A stretch of DNA of 64,000 nucleotides. It comes from Paramecium tetraurelia (lineage: Eukaryota; Ciliophora; Oligohymenophorea; Peniculida; Parameciidae). Position 1 is the first letter of the stretch; each line of letters starts with the position of its first letter. Location: contig NW_001799044.1 in the NCBI RefSeq assembly GCF_000165425.1, forward strand, positions 540,693 to 604,692, given 5' to 3'. The notes beneath the pieces are model-generated. The model ran no database searches and was not told the origin of the DNA. It was given only the letters and a program-made list of their open reading frames with translations. The position numbers were made by a program, and so were the translations under genes. Of this stretch, positions 984 to 63,767 are shown piece after piece.

Positions 984-2544
984 ATGCTACGAAAAGACAG
1001 TTCTTACAGAGAAATATCCTTAACGGACTCCATAGAGCAGAAATCATTTTTAAACTTAACCAGAAAACCATCCAATGCTGATTTTAAAGGAAAGACACCC
1101 TTAGGTGTCTAAAACAAAGATAATAAGGAGAATTCATCTGCAAGAATTCATTCTGATACACCTCCATAAGACTTTTTTTTTAAAAGAGAAGTCATCAAAT
1201 CGGAGAAATAGTTACCCAATGAGAAAACAGCAATATATAATGATGCATCAAGATTTTAATCATCCAAAACGTATATGGAATGCAGGATGGAATAAGTAGA
1301 ACAGCGCAGAAAAACCTAAAGTCCATAGTTATTGTCCATGACTCCTGTTCAGAATAAGTAAATCATTCAAGAAAGTTATAATCATCTCCAATAACCATAA
1401 TAATAATAATAACAAACAGTTTAAAGTTCGATCAATTTAACTAGAAAGGCTTCAGTTGTTCCTTCAAGAGGGTTATCTACCTTATCTTCCCCAACTCCTA
1501 AAGAAGGAGATTTTAATATCTATAAACAGCAGAGCAGCATACCAGCATCATATTTGGATTCAGTTGTTACTAATAGAAATAACAAAAATTATACTGTTCC
1601 GGAACAGTAATAATAATAATAACCACAATAACAATAATAATAATAATATTTATAATAATAATAGTAACAATAACAACAATAATAAGAATAGAAAAATCCC
1701 TCTCTAAAATTATACTACATTACTTCGCTAATTAAGGCTTTTAAAATGAAAGGTCCAAATTCAGCAAAAGAGCATCTCATTCATAATATGCAGGTAAAAA
1801 TTGATCACACAATTTAAGGGAATCATAATCGCTAAGAAGCTAAAAGTACCCCCAGTTAAGAAAGCCATAACATTGCCAGTGACTGACAAGAAAACTCTGC
1901 TGTTTGACTTGGACGAAACATTAGTGCATTGTAACTCAAATAGTTTTATCCCTGGAGATGTTTTACTCAATATAAATCACGAAGGAGAGAAGATGGAAGT
2001 ATAGAAACAATATAAAAATATAGGCTTCTTTGAATATTAGACCTTATACCTCTCATTTACTTTAGTCGTTAAGTAGAAATTTCGAATTGATTGTATTTAC
2101 TGCTTCTCAATCACATTATGCTAATGCGGTGATAGATTATTTAGATCCATAGAAAAAGTGGATAAGTCACAGATTCTATAGAGAACACTGCATACCTACA
2201 GATGATGGACATTTCATTAAGGATCTTCGTATTTTTACAACAAGAAAACTAAGTGATATGTTGTTAATTGACAATGCTCCTCATTCTTATCTTTATTAAA
2301 TTTAAAATGGGGTGCCAATCATACCTTACATCGACAATAAGTCAGATGAAGTAAATATCAGTTTTTAATCAATTAGGAATTGAAATCGTTATTGTAATAT
2401 TTGATGTAATTTAAGAATGTTAAGGATGTGAGAGAATTGAATATGTAGCAAATGAAATTGCATCGTTTTTCAGAATATGATGACCCTCAAGAACTATTAA
2501 AATGTGAATTTAATGAATACTAATTATAATCCGTTTTATTATGA
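984..2544 (+). CDS. SCP/FCP1-like HAD phosphatase (NLI-interacting-factor type)
   Basis: A 494-residue protein with introns at 1794-1818 (ends AAG), 1999-2023 and 2351-2376. The first ~270 residues are Ser/Thr/Gln-rich with glutamine runs written as TAA/CAA. The catalytic domain follows: DLDETLVHC near residue 300 carries the two aspartates of the HAD class. Downstream are NIRPYTSHLL, ELIVFTASQSHYANAV, HRFYREHC and the late acidic motif LLIDNAPHSY. These are hallmarks of small CTD phosphatases, which dephosphorylate Ser/Thr in targets such as the RNA polymerase II tail; the substrate here is unknown. The stop TGA 2542-2544 overlaps the ATG of the next gene. The start is the first in-frame ATG; the competing Asn-rich frame is closed by TGA at 1747. 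Confidence 0.85.
1594..1690 (+). repeat. TAA/CAA codon repeat encoding polyglutamine
   Basis: A run of trinucleotides (TAA, CAA, some TAG) inside the N-terminal region of the SCP-like phosphatase gene. In the coding frame it reads as a nearly pure glutamine tract with the ciliate code; the neighbouring frame would read polyasparagine but contains a TGA shortly after. Confidence 0.8.
2521..2541 (+). promoter_or_regulatory. 21-bp motif at the start of the trichocyst matrix gene (copy 1)
   Basis: The sequence T followed by AATTATAATCCGTTTTATTA ends on the A of the start codon at 2541. The identical 21 bp occur at 48266-48286, 14 bp before the ATG of another secretory-cargo gene. This copy lies inside the last codons of the upstream phosphatase. 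The identity is seen directly; a role as shared promoter or 5' UTR element for trichocyst genes is inference. Confidence 0.5.
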
Positions 2545-3796
2545 TTAAATCACTTTTTATATGTGCCTTGCTTATAGGATTGAGTGTAGCCTCACTCTCA
2601 GAAGAAGGTGAAGTTATAGCCAAATTGACATAATTGGAACAAAGTGAATTTGGTCGATATTTGATTCACACAATTTAACTGGAGATGGAAACATCTGACA
2701 GTTTAGACCACTTAATCAACGTACTAGAAAAGTTAGAAGGACGTTACTAAGATGATTAAAAAGAAGATGATGCAAACAATAGACTCTATTAGGATTAATG
2801 TGACTCAGACATTGGTTCACTTGATAAAGACATTGCCAATAGCTAATATTCAATTCTACAACTTGAGGCAAAACTAGAAGGTAATCTCATTCCTGCTAGA
2901 TCAATCCAATAAGGTGTTGAAAAGGCTAAATCGGCAGAAATTAAGCGTAATATTTCCCTTTTAATTTAGAATACACCCAAGAAATATAAGAACTCGACGA
3001 GGAGAGACAAGAACAAAATGAAGTTTATGAAGCTAAAATTGCTGAACATTATGAAGCCTCCAAAATCATCAGAGAAGCTCAAGCAATTATTAAGGATGGA
3101 CTCTAAAGACCCTCTTTGGCAGAAGTGAAGAAGAATGGCAAAAATGTTCTTAGAATAGCTCCCAATGTTTTAGCTTAAGTATCCTCAAGTTTGGGTGGAT
3201 CAATTAATAAGATCAGATAAACTCACAGATTTACTAAAGCTTATGCAAGCATTTTCAAGGTGTTGTTAACAATCATGAATAAATCTGAATCTACTGCTGA
3301 TGAAGGATCTGTTGAGAAGTATTTTAATACATTTATATTGAACACTCTAGAATAATTCAACTCTGCAGTGATTTATTGGCCAAGATTGATGACAGTACTA
3401 ACTTAGAAAGATTTGCTGAAGACAAGAGAGTTTAGGCTTATGAAAAACACAAGCATTTATTAAATAGAGATTTATAATCTGCTTAATCTATTTTAGCCAA
3501 CACTCAAGCAACTTTATAAAGGTTATTCTCATTTTTAAATATTTAGTTTGAATGATTAAATTTAACAGGCCCAAAACTCCATTGCCACCATATAATAAAG
3601 ATTAGATTATTATTAAGATACTAGATAATAAAGATACACTGAATGCGAGGAAGCTGCCTATGATTATCAATAGGCTAGAAGTGCCAGAGATAACAATAAA
3701 CAATTAGTATCTGACTTAATTGGTTTAGTCAATAAACACCTAAGAGTTCTCAGAGAACAATTAGCACTTAGAGTTGCAGCTGGTGATAATATATGA
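2541..3796 (+). CDS. trichocyst matrix protein (TMP family)
   Basis: A 391-residue secretory protein with introns at 2947-2969, 3319-3350 and 3522-3546. It starts with a signal peptide (MIKSLFICALLIGLSVAS) and continues as long acidic and Gln-rich helices. Segments such as YQDDQKEDDANNRLYQDQ with CDSDIGSLDKDIA, and near the C-terminus YTECEEAAYDYQQARSARDN, match the pattern of Paramecium trichocyst matrix proteins, where Cys-flanked coiled-coil segments repeat in each half. By family knowledge such precursors are processed and crystallise inside dense-core secretory organelles that extrude as needles. The start is fixed by the signal peptide. The ATG overlaps the TGA of the preceding phosphatase gene and sits at the end of a 21-bp motif shared with the gene at 48301. 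Confidence 0.88.
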
Positions 3797-14727: not shown

Positions 14728-16766
14728 TCAACGCTTATATTTTTTACCATCAAATGCTCCTTGGATTTAAGAAAAGGTGGCCTGTTTATCCCATTCCAAT
14801 AAGATGTAGTTTTAGTTGCCTACATTCAAGCAATTCAAGATCACATAATTGTGATAAATCAATGCATAATTGTCCACGATATCCAACTTTTATCCTGCAT
14901 CCTTCTTCTCTGGTTACAGCATCTTGCTGAATTCTTGCTCCTTCACTTCTTTAGGTGGCACTCCTCTTTGATGAAGCCTTATGAAATGATTACTATGATA
15001 ATTTAATAGCAACTCTTACTTAGTAAATAATAACATTCTTTTGCTATCTTTGTTGTCAGTGATTGCTCCTCTTATTGGATCCTTTAGGAGAGAAACATTG
15101 AGGGGAGAATGCATCATATGCTCCTTGGAATAAGAATTCATTTGCCATAATTATTCTTTGAAATCGTAATTGTAAATTGCAAAAATGTGAGAAGCATAAG
15201 TAACTAATATTTTCATGCATTTGCCATTGATTATCAATATATTAGTGACATAATTTTGATTAGATCTACAGTCAATTTACTCAACGGTGTTGTTAATGAC
15301 ATTCACAGAAACGAACTTTTACAAATAAGGGTAGGTGATAATTAATGTTTTTTTATTGACAAATTTCATTAATTTTGGTTATCCATGAATTAATTAAGCT
15401 ATAAATTGAGATTGTCCATTGATTTTATGTTTGAATAGCTTATCATCTTTGTCAATACTATAAAATGTATTCTAAGAGTGATCAAACTCCATACATTTGA
15501 AATGTGGATAAACTTGATATTTTTTAAATTGCTTATCCACTTCATTCATGATAACAGTCTAGTCACTCTATCCATAACACAATAGGTTTTTAGTCAATTT
15601 AATAAAATGAGCTGGTTTTTAGAGTTTGAATTCGCACCAATAAATAGGATCAGATTCAATATCATAGGATAACAAATCTATAGAATCATATTTGTTAATT
15701 GCAATATACTGATGATTACATATGAACTGCTCACTTCTGGGAATGGTGAAAATATGTGTAAACTAATTCTATTAAAGTAGTTAACCATTTAACATCCAAT
15801 TTATAATAACAAATATCAGTATTCAAACCTCCAGATATAAGGATGTTATTCTTAATAATTTCAAAAGCATAAACATCATGGGATTGCCCTCTTATTTGTT
15901 AGGTTATTTGGTATTGTGATCCATTGTATGATAAACAAACTATTTTACTATCTACTCCACTCACATAAACATTATTTAGATTTGGATATAAAGTAAGAAT
16001 ATCTGACATGTGTGTTTGTATTTGTTGAATTTCCGTATTAAATTAAGTCTCATAAATAATGATACTGCCATTGGATGATCCAATGAATAGATTATTATTG
16101 CAAATACATAATTTCCAAGGAATAATAACATTGGCCTTGGCAATTTTGGAACTGCTTATATTGAGTTGCCATGTTTACTGTTGTAGTAATGTCTTTTAAG
16201 TTAATTATCTGATAGATCCATTAGAGAAAGATGCATAAACATATTCTTTATTGATGGCAATTGATAAACATTGGCAATCTAATTGTTGTGATTGTTGAAT
16301 TTGATATACTTTATTGTTTTAATAATCGAATTTTCTGATTGAACCATCACTACAAGCGCATAAAAAGTATGTGTCAATGGTGGGTATGGATTCATAGATA
16401 TTAATATTATCTGGCAATTAAAAATTATTTAGAGGTTTATAATCGTGAATATTAAACAATGAAATTTGACCACTTAAATATGCACAAATGAAATCTAGAT
16501 ATATTATTTACATAAGTACGTTCTTCATCAATCCAAAAGAGTGAACGAATTTAACTATTGATGGAACAACAAATTGAAATTTGAGTGTATGTTGGATAAG
16601 AATAGATTTCAATCACTCCATTTTCTTTACCAACCAGCAATAATTGCTAAATAGGATTATTTGAGAGAGCTGTGATGGTGGATGGTAAATATGGAATTTG
16701 TTTATGATGCAAAGAAACATGAGCCTTTTCATATTACTTTTTAATCTGTGGTTGCTCTATTTACAT
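14728..16766 (-). CDS. UTP4: UTP4/Cirhin-like WD40 protein of the small-subunit processome
   Basis: A 662-residue beta-propeller protein with introns at 16495-16519 and 15769-15793. The opening ITALSNNPIQQLLLVGKENG and IEIYSYPTY, then IRSLFWIDEE with ICAYLSGQISLFN, resemble the start of UTP4/Cirhin. WD-type blades continue (CSDGSIRKFDY, SNGSIRQL, SSNGSIIIYE). The end, AFDGKKYKR, fits the conserved basic C-terminus of that family. UTP4 belongs to the t-UTP subcomplex that binds pre-rRNA and is needed for 18S maturation in the nucleolus. Individual WD signatures are weak, as is usual for this family. The gene ends 51 bp before the ATG8 start. Confidence 0.75.
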
Positions 16767-16793
16767 TATTTTAATTTATATAAAATATATATG

Positions 16794-17903
16794 TCATGGT
16801 ATTAATGACTCATTTAGCAGTTATTATTCTTCCGTTTTAGACTCCTCCTCTTAATTGTCCGTAGCACTTTCTTCAACGAGCATTTGATAAGGGGGCAATG
16901 CTGGAGGATGTAAAATATAGCTGATTTCCATGTATTAGAGTACAGTGTCACCACCTAAATAGAATTACAATGCTTACGTGTTCCATATGCACAATGATAA
17001 GTCGATGATTTCTTATCAACATATTCACCTCCGACTTTGACGTAGAAATTACCAGCTCTACTATGCACATCGAATCCTGTGATTCCCTAGGCCAATACAT
17101 TCTAATGAGATTCGAAAATAAAAGTAGAAGGAACTTCTCTCTCAAATCTTTGTACTCTTAATTTCATCCTATTTTCATTATCCAAAAATTAATTAAACGC
17201 ATTGTCTGAACTACCCAAAGTTCCCATTATAGTAGAGTAATCTGAAGAAATAAAGTAAGCTATTCTAAGAGTATTAATATGACATCTGTCTCTTGTTAAG
17301 AATCTTACAGCAGTGGCACTTCCTGTTGGTTTACCCAACTATATTTAAATGGTTGTTGTCAATGAGTCGTAGACTTCAATTTCAGCACCTACAATGAATG
17401 CCACTACTCTTGGTGTTGGATACTTCAAGTAATATTAAACCATGAAATCTTGGAATCGAGTTCCAAAACCTTGTCTCAATCTAATCAAATCTTCAAATTA
17501 ATAGTTAACGTATTGCACTTCTGCTTCTGAATCCACGAATGCTACCCATCTTATTCTTAACACTGGAATGATTGCTGGACCATTAATTAAATAGTTTATA
17601 TAGAACCCTTTTACAGTCACATCAGAAACAAAAGTCTGATAATTGATATTCCTATTTTTATTCCACTCTATTTCTTCGTGCATCAATAAAACTTATGGGC
17701 GTCTATTCAAATATTTATTATTCTGACCTGCTGAATTATCTTGGAAATTGCACTCGAGTGAACATTTGCAATGGAAAGACAGGTTCAACGAATTTGTTTT
17801 GTCTATTGATGGTTCTATCAATCCCAGATTGCCATTCTGTATAACCATCATAGCCTAACTATCCCAAAACGCTAACACATAAAATTGCTGCAATTATAAA
17901 CAT
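16794..17903 (-). CDS. secreted protein with H-type lectin domains
   Basis: A 353-residue protein with introns at 17703-17727 and 16955-16977. It starts with a signal peptide (MFIIAAILCVSVLG). The segment RPQVLLMHEEIEWNKNRNI, TFVSDVTVKGFYI and IIPVLRIRWVAF has the pattern of H-type lectin domains (as in discoidin C-termini). A second, similar beta-rich block seems to run through STFIFESHQNVLAQGITGFD and YVKVGGEYVD. The tail is acidic and Gln/Glu-rich. Such domains bind GalNAc-type sugars; a surface or secretory-granule role is inference. The gene starts 19 bp downstream of the UBL/UBA gene on the same strand. Confidence 0.7.
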
Positions 17904-17922
17904 TAATATTAAAAAAACGATA

Positions 17923-30629: not shown

Positions 30630-33302
30630 TCAGAATCTCCTTCTTAAACTCCATACTGATTAAATATGCTATTCAAATTGAATGTCGTCTTCAATTAACA
30701 CATTTAAATTATTATAATATCCAATGAATTCTTCAAAGGTTACGTTAGGATTTTTTACATAGTCTCCCCCAGTCTATAAAATAGTTAAAATTCATACAAA
30801 AACAATGTGATGTTATTCAAAAGTGTCTATGAATTCGCATAAAATGTCATCCTCTCTTTTTCTGTTGGCTCTGACATCAGGATGATCCTTTGCACTGAAT
30901 TATTCTATTATTTATTAAATTCTAATTACATTTAACTATATCGATGGTAGCCTTTGGAAGAGATTCAAATGCTTATTGAACAGCATTAAATTTCCTTAAA
31001 CTCATCGTACCTTAAACTTATTTAATGAATCCATCATAATTCATCATTCCATTTGTTTGGAATTATTAGAAAACTTCATCTAAAATTTAATCACTCACTT
31101 CCAGTCTCCATTACTTAAAGCAATTCTTCCATTCCTAGTATGATAAAGCATTCAAATGGGATTTATCATACAACTAAAATCTATACTATATATTTATCAA
31201 TCCTCTCAATCCTCTTTATGAAATTTTATTCTTCAAAATTTGCACACCATCCATCTTTTATTTGTTTGATTTTACACTTTGCTCTCTTTCTTATTATTAC
31301 TATTGTGATTATTATGAAATCTATGATTAAGACAGTGGGATTTATTAAAGTTATGATCCATTTTAAATTGCTTTGACATCTTCCAATGGTTTAAATATGT
31401 TAAATGAAGCTGGTTAATTATAACCTACAGAAGGTCTTGATTAAGCTAATTATTCTTGTTGGGTAAATGTTCCAAATGGTGCATTTGCAGAAACACTTCC
31501 TCCTTGTAAAACATATCGATGGTGATCTTATAAATAACTTCTTTTATGATCTGGTTCAAAAACTTACTTATTACCAGCATGATGATTCTTGCCTCCGTCT
31601 TACAGCAATCTGAATACATTCACAATTATCTACTCGAAGTATTTATCATCAGGTATTGAGGCACTATAATTACTAAAGAATTCTAATAGTTCTTCTTTTG
31701 GAATATTTTCATGTCCAAATCCTCCATTGATATTATGTAATTATTGCAATGGTTCAAAAAAGTCTTAAACAATTTCATCATCACTTTTCTTGCCACTTTT
31801 TAGATCAGGATGATTTCTACAAATGAAGTTGTTTCTTAATGTTGACAATGTGACACAATCATTTGTTCTATATTTTTCAAATAATTATTCGATTAATTAA
31901 ATTCTCTATTATGGCATTTCACCTCTTAATACAAACATGAAACCCCATAAATCTATTAAACCAGATGATTCTCTATCGAAATATTGGAATACAAGATCTA
32001 TTTCAGGGTCTGTCACTTCAATTTTATGATCTCTAATAGCCTTTCTAAATTCAGTCAAATTCAACATCCCATCATGATCAGCATCTAAGATTTTCCCAAC
32101 TCTATACAAAGATATGAAACCTCTTGCTCCTCTTGATATCAATCGATTTCTGATTCTTTGTACTATTAATTCAACCTATCTGGATGTTGAGGACATCTAG
32201 GATGCATTTGACTATTGAGATTTGACTGATTTTGGAACAGATTATCGTTGTTATTGTTATTGTTATTGTTATTATTATTGTTATTGATAAGATTTTACTG
32301 ATTTATCTTAAGATGGGGAAAAATTTAATTATTAGACAATTTGAGGATTGGTTATTATGTTCTATGATTCAGGGGAGTAATTGAATTATTACTATTATTA
32401 TTTTACACTTTGAGGTGGAGTACCATATTATGGAGCTTATTGTTAAAATTAATTCAAATCCCAAACAGAAGCCAGAATAGACTTAAATATTTCATCACTT
32501 GTCACATAGAATCCAAAATAAGAGTAAAAATCAAAAAAATCTTGAATTGTCAACATTTTAATTCCTCTTAATTACAGATAGACACTTAATCCTGACAAAA
32601 ATTCTTCTCTAACGTCATTAGGCGATCTATTTAGTATTTTAATTTCGGGATGTCTATCTGCATTGAATCTATTCACTAACTATTGAGGATTGACTTCTCT
32701 TTATTCAAATGTGTAAAATACATCTGACACTACTCCTTACCTGGATTAATTCAAGTATTGACCCTTAATTTAATTAATCAAGTTTGAAGCACTCATATAC
32801 TCTCCATTGAATAATTAATACAACCCATCCACTTCTATATTATTCCTTTTCAAATAATCCTGCAATTGCTAAGCAGTAAATTAACTTGGTAAACTTATTG
32901 CTAAATTCAATATGCCTAAAGCCCCCTTCAATTGTAATTTAACTCTGAGTTAATCTAATGGATTTCCTGTTTGTACTATTCTTGATTCTGCTTATTCCTC
33001 TAATGATTGCTTCCCAACAACTCTATTAATAAACTCCTTATAATTTAGTTATTCATTAACAGAGTAGGTCGTCCAAAGTCTCTCTCCAAACTAAATTTAA
33101 AAAATTGATATACTTCTTAATCTGAAATCGTAACACCAGCTTTAGCTATTGCTTTTAAAAAGTCTTGCTTTTTCAAATTCCCTTCATTGCTAAGGTCGAA
33201 GAATTTGAATATTTTGAGGAGCACTGTTTCAACACCTATTCTTGAAGAAGCTTTGAATTAAAGTTTTGTTACAAGTTCTTTTTCAAATTGCTAAATATCC
33301 AT
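30630..33302 (-). CDS. large EF-hand protein with calcyphosin-like modules
   Basis: An 864-residue protein with introns at 33091-33113, 30905-30929 and 30774-30803. EF-hand loops are visible: a canonical one, DADHDGMLNLTEF, about the middle, and degenerate ones such as FFDLSNEGNLKKQDF near the N-terminus and YFDRESSGLIDLWGF. A module recurs in which RHP or DHP precedes a polar stretch, an acidic helix ending in EEF/EFF and then a paired helix (HPEIKILNRSPNDVREEFL; HPDLKSGKKSDDEIVQDFF; HPDVRANRKREDDILCEFI). This resembles calcyphosin-type ciliary EF-hand proteins. Gln-rich linkers separate modules. Calcium control of cilia is inference. Codons CAA/TAA repeat at 32243-32289. Confidence 0.75.
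32243..32289 (-). repeat. CAA/TAA hexanucleotide-like repeat encoding polyglutamine
   Basis: On the plus strand this reads as repeated TTATTG units; on the coding strand it is alternating CAA and TAA, a glutamine run between two EF-hand modules. It looks prone to length change. Confidence 0.8.
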
Positions 33303-47859: not shown

Positions 47860-48300
47860 TTTAATCTAAATATTGATATAATAAAAAATACAATAACAAA
47901 TTTATCATTTCTTAAGAATTAGTTTTGAACTATTCTTATTTTTAATAATAAAATAAAAAGAATCAAGTAGTGAGATTTGCATTCAGATACCTTCTTCTTT
48001 TCTCCAAATAAGAAAAAGCATCAAAGTTGTCCTCAGATTGTATTTAATTGAAATTTCATTATTCAACCTATCAAGCTATTGACTTTCTCTTCTTTTAAAC
48101 AAAATAGAACTTATTATAAATATTAGAGTTTCTTAATTTAAGGCATCCTGAAACTAAACAAGTAAAGTTAGAAATATTATTTGAATTCTCTCAACATATT
48201 TTATCTTATATTTGGGTAAGCAGGTATTACATTACTATTATAACACACTTATATTATTATTAAATTAATTATAATCCGTTTTATTAATAAATATACATTC
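47860..48300. other. divergent intergenic region with trichocyst-type motif near its right end
   Basis: 441 bp between the AK7 start (-) and the crystallin-tailed gene (+). No open frame of note. The 21-bp motif at 48266-48286 is the only element I can point to. Confidence 0.5.
48266..48286 (+). promoter_or_regulatory. 21-bp motif before the crystallin-tailed secretory gene (copy 2)
   Basis: Identical over 21 bp (T then AATTATAATCCGTTTTATTA) to 2521-2541 at the start of the trichocyst matrix protein gene. Here it ends 14 bp before ATG 48301. Identity stops at both edges, so this is a discrete element rather than a duplicated promoter. Regulatory role inferred. Confidence 0.5.
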
Positions 48301-49895
48301 ATGATAAAATCCATCATTTTGATGTCTTTGCTCTTATTATCCTTTGGGTAGAACATATAAGGAACTTTAGCAACCCACTATGATTTAGATGGCAATTTGA
48401 TCTCTGAGGAAGTTCAATAATCTACAGAAGATGATTACTCCTCTCTTAATAGCATGGATTCGTCAATGGATTCCAGCATGAATCTAAACGTTGATGAACA
48501 ATAAAATTAATTTTAACTTGATGAGAACCTCAACTCTATGAATTCAATGGATTTAACAGATGATATCGCTCCTCTATAAAGTGGAGAAGTCGATAACAAT
48601 TAAACAAATTTAGTGGAATCAGAATTTGAGATATCTCCAGTTATCAATAAATAGCCAGAAGAAGAATCATCATCTTAGTATTAAGAATATTAGCAATAAG
48701 AAAGAGAAAGGGAAAATTAATTAGCAGAAGTGATGTAAGAGGGTAATAATAATGACAATCAAAATGAAATAACTACTACAGAACAACAGCAAGAAGAATC
48801 AACTCAAATTTAAACTGATACTTTTTTATAGCCTGTAATTGCATCATAAGAATAAATTATTGATATCTTACAACCTCAAGAAGAATAAGAAATTATCAAT
48901 TCATTAAAATAAAGTGAGGATATCTAAGACTCATTTGTAAATAGTCAAGAGATTCAATCCTCCTTTGATGAAAATGATTCAATGTTATAAAATATTGATC
49001 CAAATGAAATAAATTCAAACAATTTTATTGCAAATACAGAAACATCAAATAATGATGAAGTAAATTAATAACAGCAACAAGACTTACCTTAAGGAGAATT
49101 GAATGTTACATAATAAGAAATTCAAAGTAATGAGGATAATTAATTAACCAAATCAGAGCCAGCTGCTGTCGAAAATTAACCCTCAGAATAGGTTTCCAAT
49201 TAAAACATTGAATCACAAACTAATTCAGCTTCTCCTTAAACAAGTATTTAACAAGAATCTATTTCTGAAAAAGGAATAGATCAAGGTGTTGATTAAACCG
49301 CTTAAACTCAAATATTGAATGATAATATAACTCCATCATAATCTGAAATTCAAGAGAATTAAAATAAACAGAATGATATTGAGTCATAATCTTAAACACA
49401 AAATAATAATGAATCATAATCAAATGGAGAGGAAAAGCATGAATTGTAAAAAATAGAGAATAATATCACTTAAGAACAATAACCAGAAAATTAAGAAAAG
49501 CTTAATCATTAAAATAATGAAACCTAAAATATAGAAGAATTAAATACTGTAAACATTTAGGATGATATTAAAAATGCTAATGAAATAAAATAAGCAAATT
49601 GTATTGTCATATATTCTTAATGCGAGTATTAAGGATTTGCATTGGAAGTTTGTAATAGTTTAAAAGAAATAGAGTATTTTATATATTGTTTTACATTTAT
49701 AGGAAATTTAAACATGAAATAAAATCTCTCTACATTCCTTAAGGCTATGGACTTACAATTTATGAAAATTAAAACTTTAATGGAAAAAGCCATCGATACA
49801 CTTCATCTTAGGCATGTTTGTCAAGTGCAGTTTCTTTAATACAACTTAGGATGGATATTTAGTTGGCTCATTAAAATTTAAGAGGAAACAAATGA
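48301..49895 (+). CDS. secreted Gln/Glu-rich protein with C-terminal beta/gamma-crystallin domain, candidate trichocyst protein
   Basis: A 521-residue protein with one intron at 49674-49702. A signal peptide (MIKSIILMSLLLLSFG) is followed by ~410 residues of low-complexity E, Q, N, S, D and T. The last ~85 residues form a beta/gamma-crystallin-like domain: CIVIYSQCEYQGFALEVC, then KSLYIPQGYGLTIYENQNF, NGKSHRYTS and SSAVSLIQLR. In Tetrahymena, crystallin-tailed secretory proteins (Grt1, Igr1) reside in dense-core granules, which supports a trichocyst location here. The gene shares its upstream 21-bp motif with the trichocyst matrix gene at 2541. The domain is only seen after splicing; the unspliced frame runs into another phase. 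Confidence 0.8.
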
Positions 49896-62709: not shown

Positions 62710-63767
62710 ATGGAATTATTTAAGGTTTCCAAAATCTAGAGTCAAATCAATAAAGAACTTTAGGTTTAAAGTATAGTTTTTTTAATTATGGAACTTACAA
62801 ACTAATCAGGAATAATTTAGATAGAGAAGATCAAAAGAATTATATCAATTGCAAGCATATTGTAAAAGTAAAAAAAAAAAAAAAAGTGGGTTTTAATCAA
62901 AGAGTAATATTCTAATTAATTATAGTGAGTCAACAAAATAATTAAAGGAATTTAGAATAAGGAAGATTAAAAAATCATTGGAGACAAAGATAAATATTGT
63001 TTAGGTAAGTTAAGATTCAACATTAAAGAAAAACTTAAATGATTCTATATATGAGTCCTTCAAAGGTGTAATTAATGAAATTATTTGTTTTAGATAATAC
63101 TCTAAATAAAATGGAGAGATTTGAAGAAGCTTTGGTGGATTATGATTTAGCAATTTTGAAAAATCCAGAAAATTCTCTATATTTTTTTAACAAAGGTATA
63201 ATAATATTGATTATTTCTTTAGCTGGTACTCTAGATAAAATGTATAGATATGAGGAAGCTTTGGACAATTATGATTTAGCAATTTTGAAAAATCCAGAAA
63301 ATTCTCTATATTATTTTAACAAAGGTATAATACATATTGATTATTTCTTTAGCTGGTACTTTAGATAAAATGAAAAGATATGAGGAAGCTTTGAAAAATT
63401 ATGATTTAGCAATTTTGAAAAATCCAGAAAATTCTCTATATTATTTTAACAAAGGTATAATACATATTGATTATTTCTTTAGCTGGTACTTTAGATAAAA
63501 TGAAAAGATATGAGGAAGCTTTGAAAAATTATGATTTAGCAATTTTGAAAAATCCAGAAAATTCTATATATTATTTTAACAAAGGTATAATAAATATTGA
63601 TTATTTCTTTAGCTGGTACTTTAGATAAAATGATGAGATTTGAAGATGCTTTGAAAAATTATGATTTAGCTAGAGAAAAAAGCTTAGGTATTTCTGACTA
63701 TTAGAATGGTAAAGGTAAGCTATCATTTAAAGACAAGCCAATTAAAAATGATTATCAAAATAATTGA
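62710..63767 (+). CDS. tetratricopeptide (TPR) repeat protein built of tandem exon-intron units
   Basis: A 295-residue model with introns at about 62725-62755 (ends AAG, least certain), 63066-63093, 63196-63222, 63325-63352, 63455-63482 and 63585-63612. The N-terminal ~105 residues are basic and Gln-rich with a run of lysines from poly-A. Then come four 34-residue repeats, each one 102-bp exon: AGTLDKMKRYEEALKNYDLA then ILKNPENSLYYFNK, the TPR consensus (W-less, with A/Y/A/P positions kept), and a fifth, partial one ending REKSLGISDYQN. TPRs stack into a protein-binding superhelix. Each intron falls in phase 1 at the repeat edge, so repeats can be added without breaking the frame. Confidence 0.75.
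63196..63612 (+). repeat. tandem ~130-bp repeat (TPR exon plus intron)
   Basis: Units of 129, 130 and 130 bp start at 63196, 63325 and 63455, with a further intron copy at 63585-63612. Exon and intron parts are both nearly identical between units, down to the intron core ATTGATTATTTCTTTAG, which points to recent unequal duplication of whole exon-intron modules. Confidence 0.85.

Follow-up and report, generated by a model that had tools for sequence, protein, structure and literature searches.

Genes for the cargo of trichocysts, the defensive darts of Paramecium, very likely share a short regulatory element close to their start codons, namely the heptamer YCGTTTT (AAAACGR on the opposite strand; strong form ATAATCCGTTTT), which we predict from its sequence and placement to be a promoter-proximal transcription-factor site. 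The analysis started from a 64-kb window (the whole stretch of DNA that was analysed), for which an initial annotation had proposed a 21-bp identity before two secretory genes as a cis-element for trichocyst genes. The placement of the element supports that proposal, but the unit is the 7-bp core, used in both orientations, and not the fixed 21 bp.

Results and discussion

A 21-bp identity before two genes of the window

The word TAATTATAATCCGTTTTATTA is present as two exact copies on the forward strand (Table 1), and a search of both strands of the 64-kb window yielded no third exact copy. No other exact repeat of the window is as long, except in a tandem array near 63 kb (63139-63670) that has a period of roughly 130 bp and contains long exact copies; a local 20-bp simple repeat at 32248 comes next in length, followed by dispersed ones of 17-18 bp. 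The initial annotation had stated that the 21 bp are identical at both loci, that the identity ends at both flanks and that both copies lie at or just before the start codon of a gene with a signal peptide, and all of this was confirmed by a comparison of the two copies and by hydrophobicity, which was the sole criterion for calling signal peptides. The last base of copy 1 is also the A in the start codon of an ORF with the signal-peptide-like start MIKSLFICALLIGLSVAS, and copy 2 stops 14 bp short of the ATG of MIKSIILMSLLLLSFGQ.

The genes involved were read with the ciliate code. The name TMP for the gene at 2541 is a label that we adopt as an assumption: the size of the family (61 matches in the genome to the N-terminus of the window gene, which has a hydrophobic start) fits it, but the first 135 residues gave no Pfam match above the cut-off. 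The beta/gamma-crystallin tail ascribed to the second gene was recovered as a PF00030 match (25.9 bits versus a cut-off of 25). Copy 1 is apparently coding as well and would contain the last codons (QLQSVLL) of the upstream gene for an NIF phosphatase, the frame of which, with the putative intron removed, runs through the copy as ...NEYQLQSVLL-stop. The TGA of this gene (2542-2544) apparently overlaps the ATG of the TMP gene (2541-2543) in the string ATGA, and the TMP promoter would thus lie within the coding sequence of its neighbour.

Two further claims were upheld in part. That the element precedes no other gene of the window is true for the 21-mer but not for the core, which is also found before a gene for an H-type lectin; a second copy of the core precedes the TMP gene. 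That chance is a very unlikely source of the identity does not follow from the window alone, where the 12-bp core has 2 matches with at most one mismatch versus 1.01 expected, but it does hold for the placement of the core genome-wide; the significance of the element therefore derives from the genome-wide tests and not from window counts.

Table 1. Elements and associated genes in the 64-kb window
Feature	Position	Strand	Remarks
Copy 1 of the 21-bp identity	2521..2541	+	exact-repeat search
Copy 1, extended core ATAATCCGTTTT	2526-2537	+	
Copy 1, 7-bp core CCGTTTT	2531-2537	+	
Second YCGTTTT core (TCGTTTT)	2463..2469	+	78 bp before the TMP ATG, within upstream coding sequence
YCGTTTT core (TCGTTTT on the minus strand)	17914..17920	-	just before the lectin start codon at 17903
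Copy 2 of the 21-bp identity	48266..48286	+	exact-repeat search
Copy 2, extended core	48271-48282	+	
Copy 2, core CCGTTTT	48276-48282	+	
NIF (NLI-interacting factor-like) phosphatase gene, 3' part	1958..2544	+	putative 26-bp intron 2351-2376
TMP-like gene	2541..3796	+	signal-peptide-like start, several exons; extent approximate
Signal-peptide H-type lectin (PF09458) gene	16613..17903	-	extent approximate
Secreted Q-rich protein gene with C-terminal beta/gamma-crystallin domain	48301..49895	+	one small putative intron; end from sequence

Placement of the extended core in the genome

The genome-wide search space comprised 69.07 Mb in 231 contigs; this size, the ciliate code and the presence of duplicated gene pairs are consistent with a Paramecium of the aurelia group. 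It contains three exact copies of the 21-mer, two of which precede duplicates of one gene: the third copy, on contig C171, lies ahead of a close TMP duplicate (locus L009) within near-identical flanks, and is consequently not independent evidence. A repeat scattered over the genome, which the initial annotation had named as a refuting outcome, is thus not what we see for the 21-mer, with three exact copies in 69 Mb; the bulk counts were below or about equal to those of the reversed word. Allowing for as many as three mismatches, we count 77 sites for the 21-mer versus 88 for its reversal; given this absence of enrichment, the 21-mer was rejected as the working unit. Several of the sites within three mismatches that retained CCGTTTT were located before signal-peptide-like starts, in both orientations, and this led to the choice of the 12-mer ATAATCCGTTTT. 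The latter has 38 exact sites versus 32 for the reversed word, which is no clear excess, so that only the placement of the sites is informative.

Placement was evaluated by means of one automatic rule, i.e. an ATG within 60 bp on either side of the site that opens a frame of at least 25 codons, with a hydrophobic stretch near the start and a K or R near the N-terminus. By this rule 23 of the 38 sites have a signal-peptide-like ORF start no more than 60 bp away (20 of 35 when the two window copies and the TMP duplicate are left out), versus none of the 20 examined among the 32 sites of the reversed word and 2 of 23 sites that are close to the 21-mer but without the core. Duplicates are present among the 23 sites that pass, which represent about 13 distinct genes or families by eye. 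Among the individual cases, the rule fails 15 sites, including one (L037) before a signal-peptide-like start with a short first exon that would be added by eye; at another site (L072) it selected an ORF other than the TMP-like one, which lies on the opposite side, and a 21-mer variant with an intact core (L030) is not accompanied by a signal-peptide-like gene.

The genes at the 12-mer sites include TMP-like genes and the crystallin-tailed gene. Other families at these sites are an acidic, Q-rich family (L038, L051 and L065), a secreted family with DPSGWTCE near the N-terminus (L039, L040, L068 and L071) and the further secreted-looking genes L054/L055 and L056; these four groups look secreted and are acidic, Q-rich or coiled-coil-like. 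No Pfam match above the cut-off was obtained for L051 (225 aa), L055 (490 aa) or the N-terminus of L039 (142 aa). We consider these four groups candidate trichocyst cargo.

The core precedes most TMP-like genes

A set of TMP-like genes was assembled on the basis of protein similarity to the N-terminus of the window TMP, which gave 61 matches, and the upstream DNA was retrieved without regard to the motif for 59 of them (two second-exon matches were left out). YCGTTTT is present within 80 bp before the predicted ATG in 55 of the 59 genes (53 of 57 if the window gene and its duplicate are excluded) and in the next 80 bp upstream in 3 of the 59. Three control words of the same composition were found in 2, 2 and 1 of the 59, and the density of the core in the window (18 sites in 64 kb) would predict about 1.3. 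The TMP-like genes without a site are L097, L098, L099 and L132.

Three other gene families served as controls, and within the same 80 bp the core occurs in 1 of their 57 genes, namely in none of 20 tubulin genes, none of 20 genes with a cathepsin propeptide and 1 of 17 p24 genes, the last of which belong to the early secretory pathway. The cathepsin and p24 genes encode signal peptides, and the element is therefore no mark of secretion in general. The other refuting outcome named by the initial annotation, a motif equally common before non-secretory genes, is for the families examined at odds with 55 of 59 TMP-like genes versus none of the 20 tubulin genes. The Fisher value for TMP-like genes versus controls is 4.5e-27, which is no true probability because paralogues are not independent.

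All distances are measured from predicted ATGs and not from mapped start sites. The final rule for assigning starts, blind to the motif and applied to all sets, takes the nearest ATG followed by a hydrophobic stretch (for tubulin simply the nearest ATG). An earlier rule, which chose among the in-frame ATGs that had a hydrophobic stretch the one furthest upstream, was dropped as it misplaced several TMP starts; under that rule the core was found within 75 bp in 47 of 59 genes, or in 45 of 48 after 11 rows had been set aside by eye. Both the rule and the window size (75 to 80 bp) were changed after the sequences had been seen, the widening affecting a single gene (L092, with a site at -76). The control families were sampled: upstream DNA was retrieved for 20 of 40 tubulin, 20 of 36 cathepsin and 20 of 43 p24 matches, and for 11 of 42 H-type lectin matches (see below), where the tubulin and p24 rows were matches that reach near the N-terminus and the cathepsin and lectin rows were taken best first. 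Three of the 20 p24 rows lacked an acceptable start and were dropped, and one row that was kept (L194) looks misplaced by eye. For L134, retrieved as a stretch 2 bases longer than the rest, the ATG was confirmed, with the core at -17.

Form and conservation of the core

YCGTTTT was initially chosen by eye among the TMP upstream regions, and for that reason a check over all words with shuffled labels, together with the other gene families, matters most. When all 6-mers were compared between TMP-like genes and controls, AAAACG was the top word (55 of 59 versus 1 of 57), with a difference of 0.91, where 200 label shuffles yielded at most 0.34 for any 6-mer. With the core masked, the next-best word was the weaker CAATAA (23 of 59 versus 5 of 57). 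The tubulin, cathepsin and p24 sets contained no word of comparable strength, and relatedness within a family is thus not easily the sole source of the signal.

In the 80-bp stretches of the TMP-like genes every CGTTTT follows a C or a T, and RCGTTTT never occurs. The core is found in the forward orientation in 39 genes and inverted in 19, with more than one copy in 5, at positions between 10 and 78 bp before the predicted start codon. Among the non-redundant sites A or T is preferred at positions -3 and -2, and T at both -1 and +7. The heptamer is not rare, as most of its 18 sites in the window lie away from gene starts (judged by eye from the listed ORFs), and position, flanks or a partner must therefore add specificity. 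The full 21-bp identity is probably in part AT-rich chance and, in copy 1, in part coding sequence.

Conservation was compared between paralogues under the earlier start rule, without the 11 rows set aside. In 16 disjoint pairs (closest first, 53-84% upstream identity) 15 of 17 whole core 7-mers were kept, versus a mean of 0.263 for all 7-mers; in all 76 overlapping pairs the numbers were 30 of 78 versus 0.139. Per base, the advantage over these 76 pairs was modest (0.788 for the element versus 0.672 for the rest). As distant pairs each hold a core, the comparison suggests that the element shifts position while its presence is kept.

Other secreted families

The core is not restricted to the TMP-like genes. 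It precedes 3 of 3 homologues of the crystallin-tailed gene that were found by protein similarity and 4 of 4 genes distantly homologous to the L039 family (E values from 9e-5 to 0.008); both families were noticed by way of the motif, and only their homologues constitute fresh tests. Among the H-type lectin genes it is present in 6 of the 11 examined, a sample to which the lectin gene of the window itself does not belong, and the N-termini of the 5 genes without a core look different by eye. In two lectin genes (L209 and L210) TCGTTTT is located a few bp inside the sequence that encodes the signal peptide, and not upstream. We infer that the products of the crystallin-tailed, L039 and H-type lectin families are trichocyst cargo.

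Separately, CRE-like words (GTCAT/GTCAC and complements) were observed within 90 bp of the start in 13 of the 20 cathepsin genes (L157-L176), and within the same distance in 6 of the 59 TMP-like genes, 4 of the 20 tubulin genes and 2 of the 17 p24 genes. These words could possibly be an element of lysosomal protease genes.

Alternative explanations

YCGTTTT might act in the core promoter as a motif for basal initiation, or for strong expression, in highly expressed Paramecium genes at large, with no tie to trichocysts. Its position near the presumed transcription start would fit, and trichocyst genes are presumably highly expressed, but the empty tubulin and cathepsin sets, and the location of most of the window sites off gene starts, make this explanation improbable. 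Still less probable is that the motif is merely an upstream relic, copied along with the expanding TMP family. Many TMP-like genes are indeed paralogues with similar upstream regions, and the third 21-mer precedes a duplicate of the TMP gene; nevertheless, both position and orientation vary among the TMP-like genes, the control families have no word that marks them as strongly, and the core recurs before the crystallin-tailed, L039 and H-type lectin families, which have no evident similarity.

We give very little credence to an action at the RNA level, as an element of the 5' UTR that affects translation or mRNA stability: some sites do lie within about 20 nt of the ATG, but both orientations are used, the element is mostly missing from the cathepsin and p24 genes, which are secretory too, and 14 listed sites lie at -57 or further, that is beyond the median 5' UTR of 19 nt reported for P. 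tetraurelia (PMC5485702). Equally little is left for coincidence in AT-rich and coding sequence as the source of the identity, even though the 12-bp core is not significant within the window, the genome counts do not clearly exceed those of the reversed word and copy 1 is apparently coding, since the way in which the sites are placed before signal-peptide genes departs far from chance; coincidence may account only for the step from some 12 bp to the full 21.

Proposed role and relation to known systems

The preferred reading of YCGTTTT is thus that of a transcription-factor site. Given the median 5' UTR of 19 nt, sites at -10 to -78 would be located around or just upstream of the transcription starts, and the use of both orientations implies that the element works as double-stranded DNA, which favours a DNA-binding protein over an RNA signal. 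A sequence-specific activator would bind YCGTTTT and help to recruit the polymerase, and one signal, probably from trichocyst discharge, would induce the genes for matrix proteins and for other cargo together. For 118 of 176 TMP genes of P. tetraurelia, presumably the same family as our TMP-like set, a rise after exocytosis has been reported, with run-on evidence for transcription being cited (PMC3091696), and the element would mediate this induction. Many genes of the early secretory pathway are also induced by exocytosis (PMC3091696), yet the p24 genes mostly lack the element, which therefore would not explain the exocytosis response as a whole. The most far-reaching version of the proposal, namely that YCGTTTT at about -10 to -80 is the site of one dedicated activator of the whole cargo regulon, connected to granule discharge by a signal to the nucleus, and that its presence predicts cargo, we regard as evenly poised between right and wrong.

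As to the identity of the factor, Myb-type sites read AAC(G/T)G. The form AAAACGG contains AACGG, but many sites read AACGA, which does not fit that consensus; a Myb-type protein is a candidate only in the sense of a lead.

Promoter elements that the genes of a battery have in common are a known class, and YCGTTTT appears to be a new instance. The nearest parallel is found in the epiplasmin genes of P. tetraurelia, for which an upstream sequence element and a TATA-like motif were proposed as similarly short promoter elements of a family, located tens of bp before the ATG (PMC2709106). As far as the available part of that paper shows, these were aligned by hand within that one family; their consensus sequences are CA(1,3)TA(3,4)[AT]TTAT and [AT]AAATAAA[AT], without a CG, whereas YCGTTTT has the CG in every aligned site and, compared by reading, does not fit them. 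The mucocysts of Tetrahymena, a different granule in a different organism, likewise have two main cargo families (Grl and Grt/Igr), one of which forms the crystalline core, and the available part of the study names no shared cis-element (PMC9159632). The words 'motif', 'promoter' and 'upstream' are absent from the main text of the exocytosis study (PMC3091696), and no such element is named in the available parts of PMC3091696, PMC5485702, PMC2709106, PMC12716044, PMC11334263 and PMC9159632. In the open-licence literature we found no shared element of trichocyst genes; an older description may exist elsewhere.

Conclusion

YCGTTTT makes the question of how the trichocyst genes are induced together testable by a single reporter mutation, and it can serve both as bait in a search for the factor and as a predictor of new granule cargo. 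If the regulon reading is true, it would predict that the crystallin-tailed, H-type lectin, L039 and L051 families are such new cargo.
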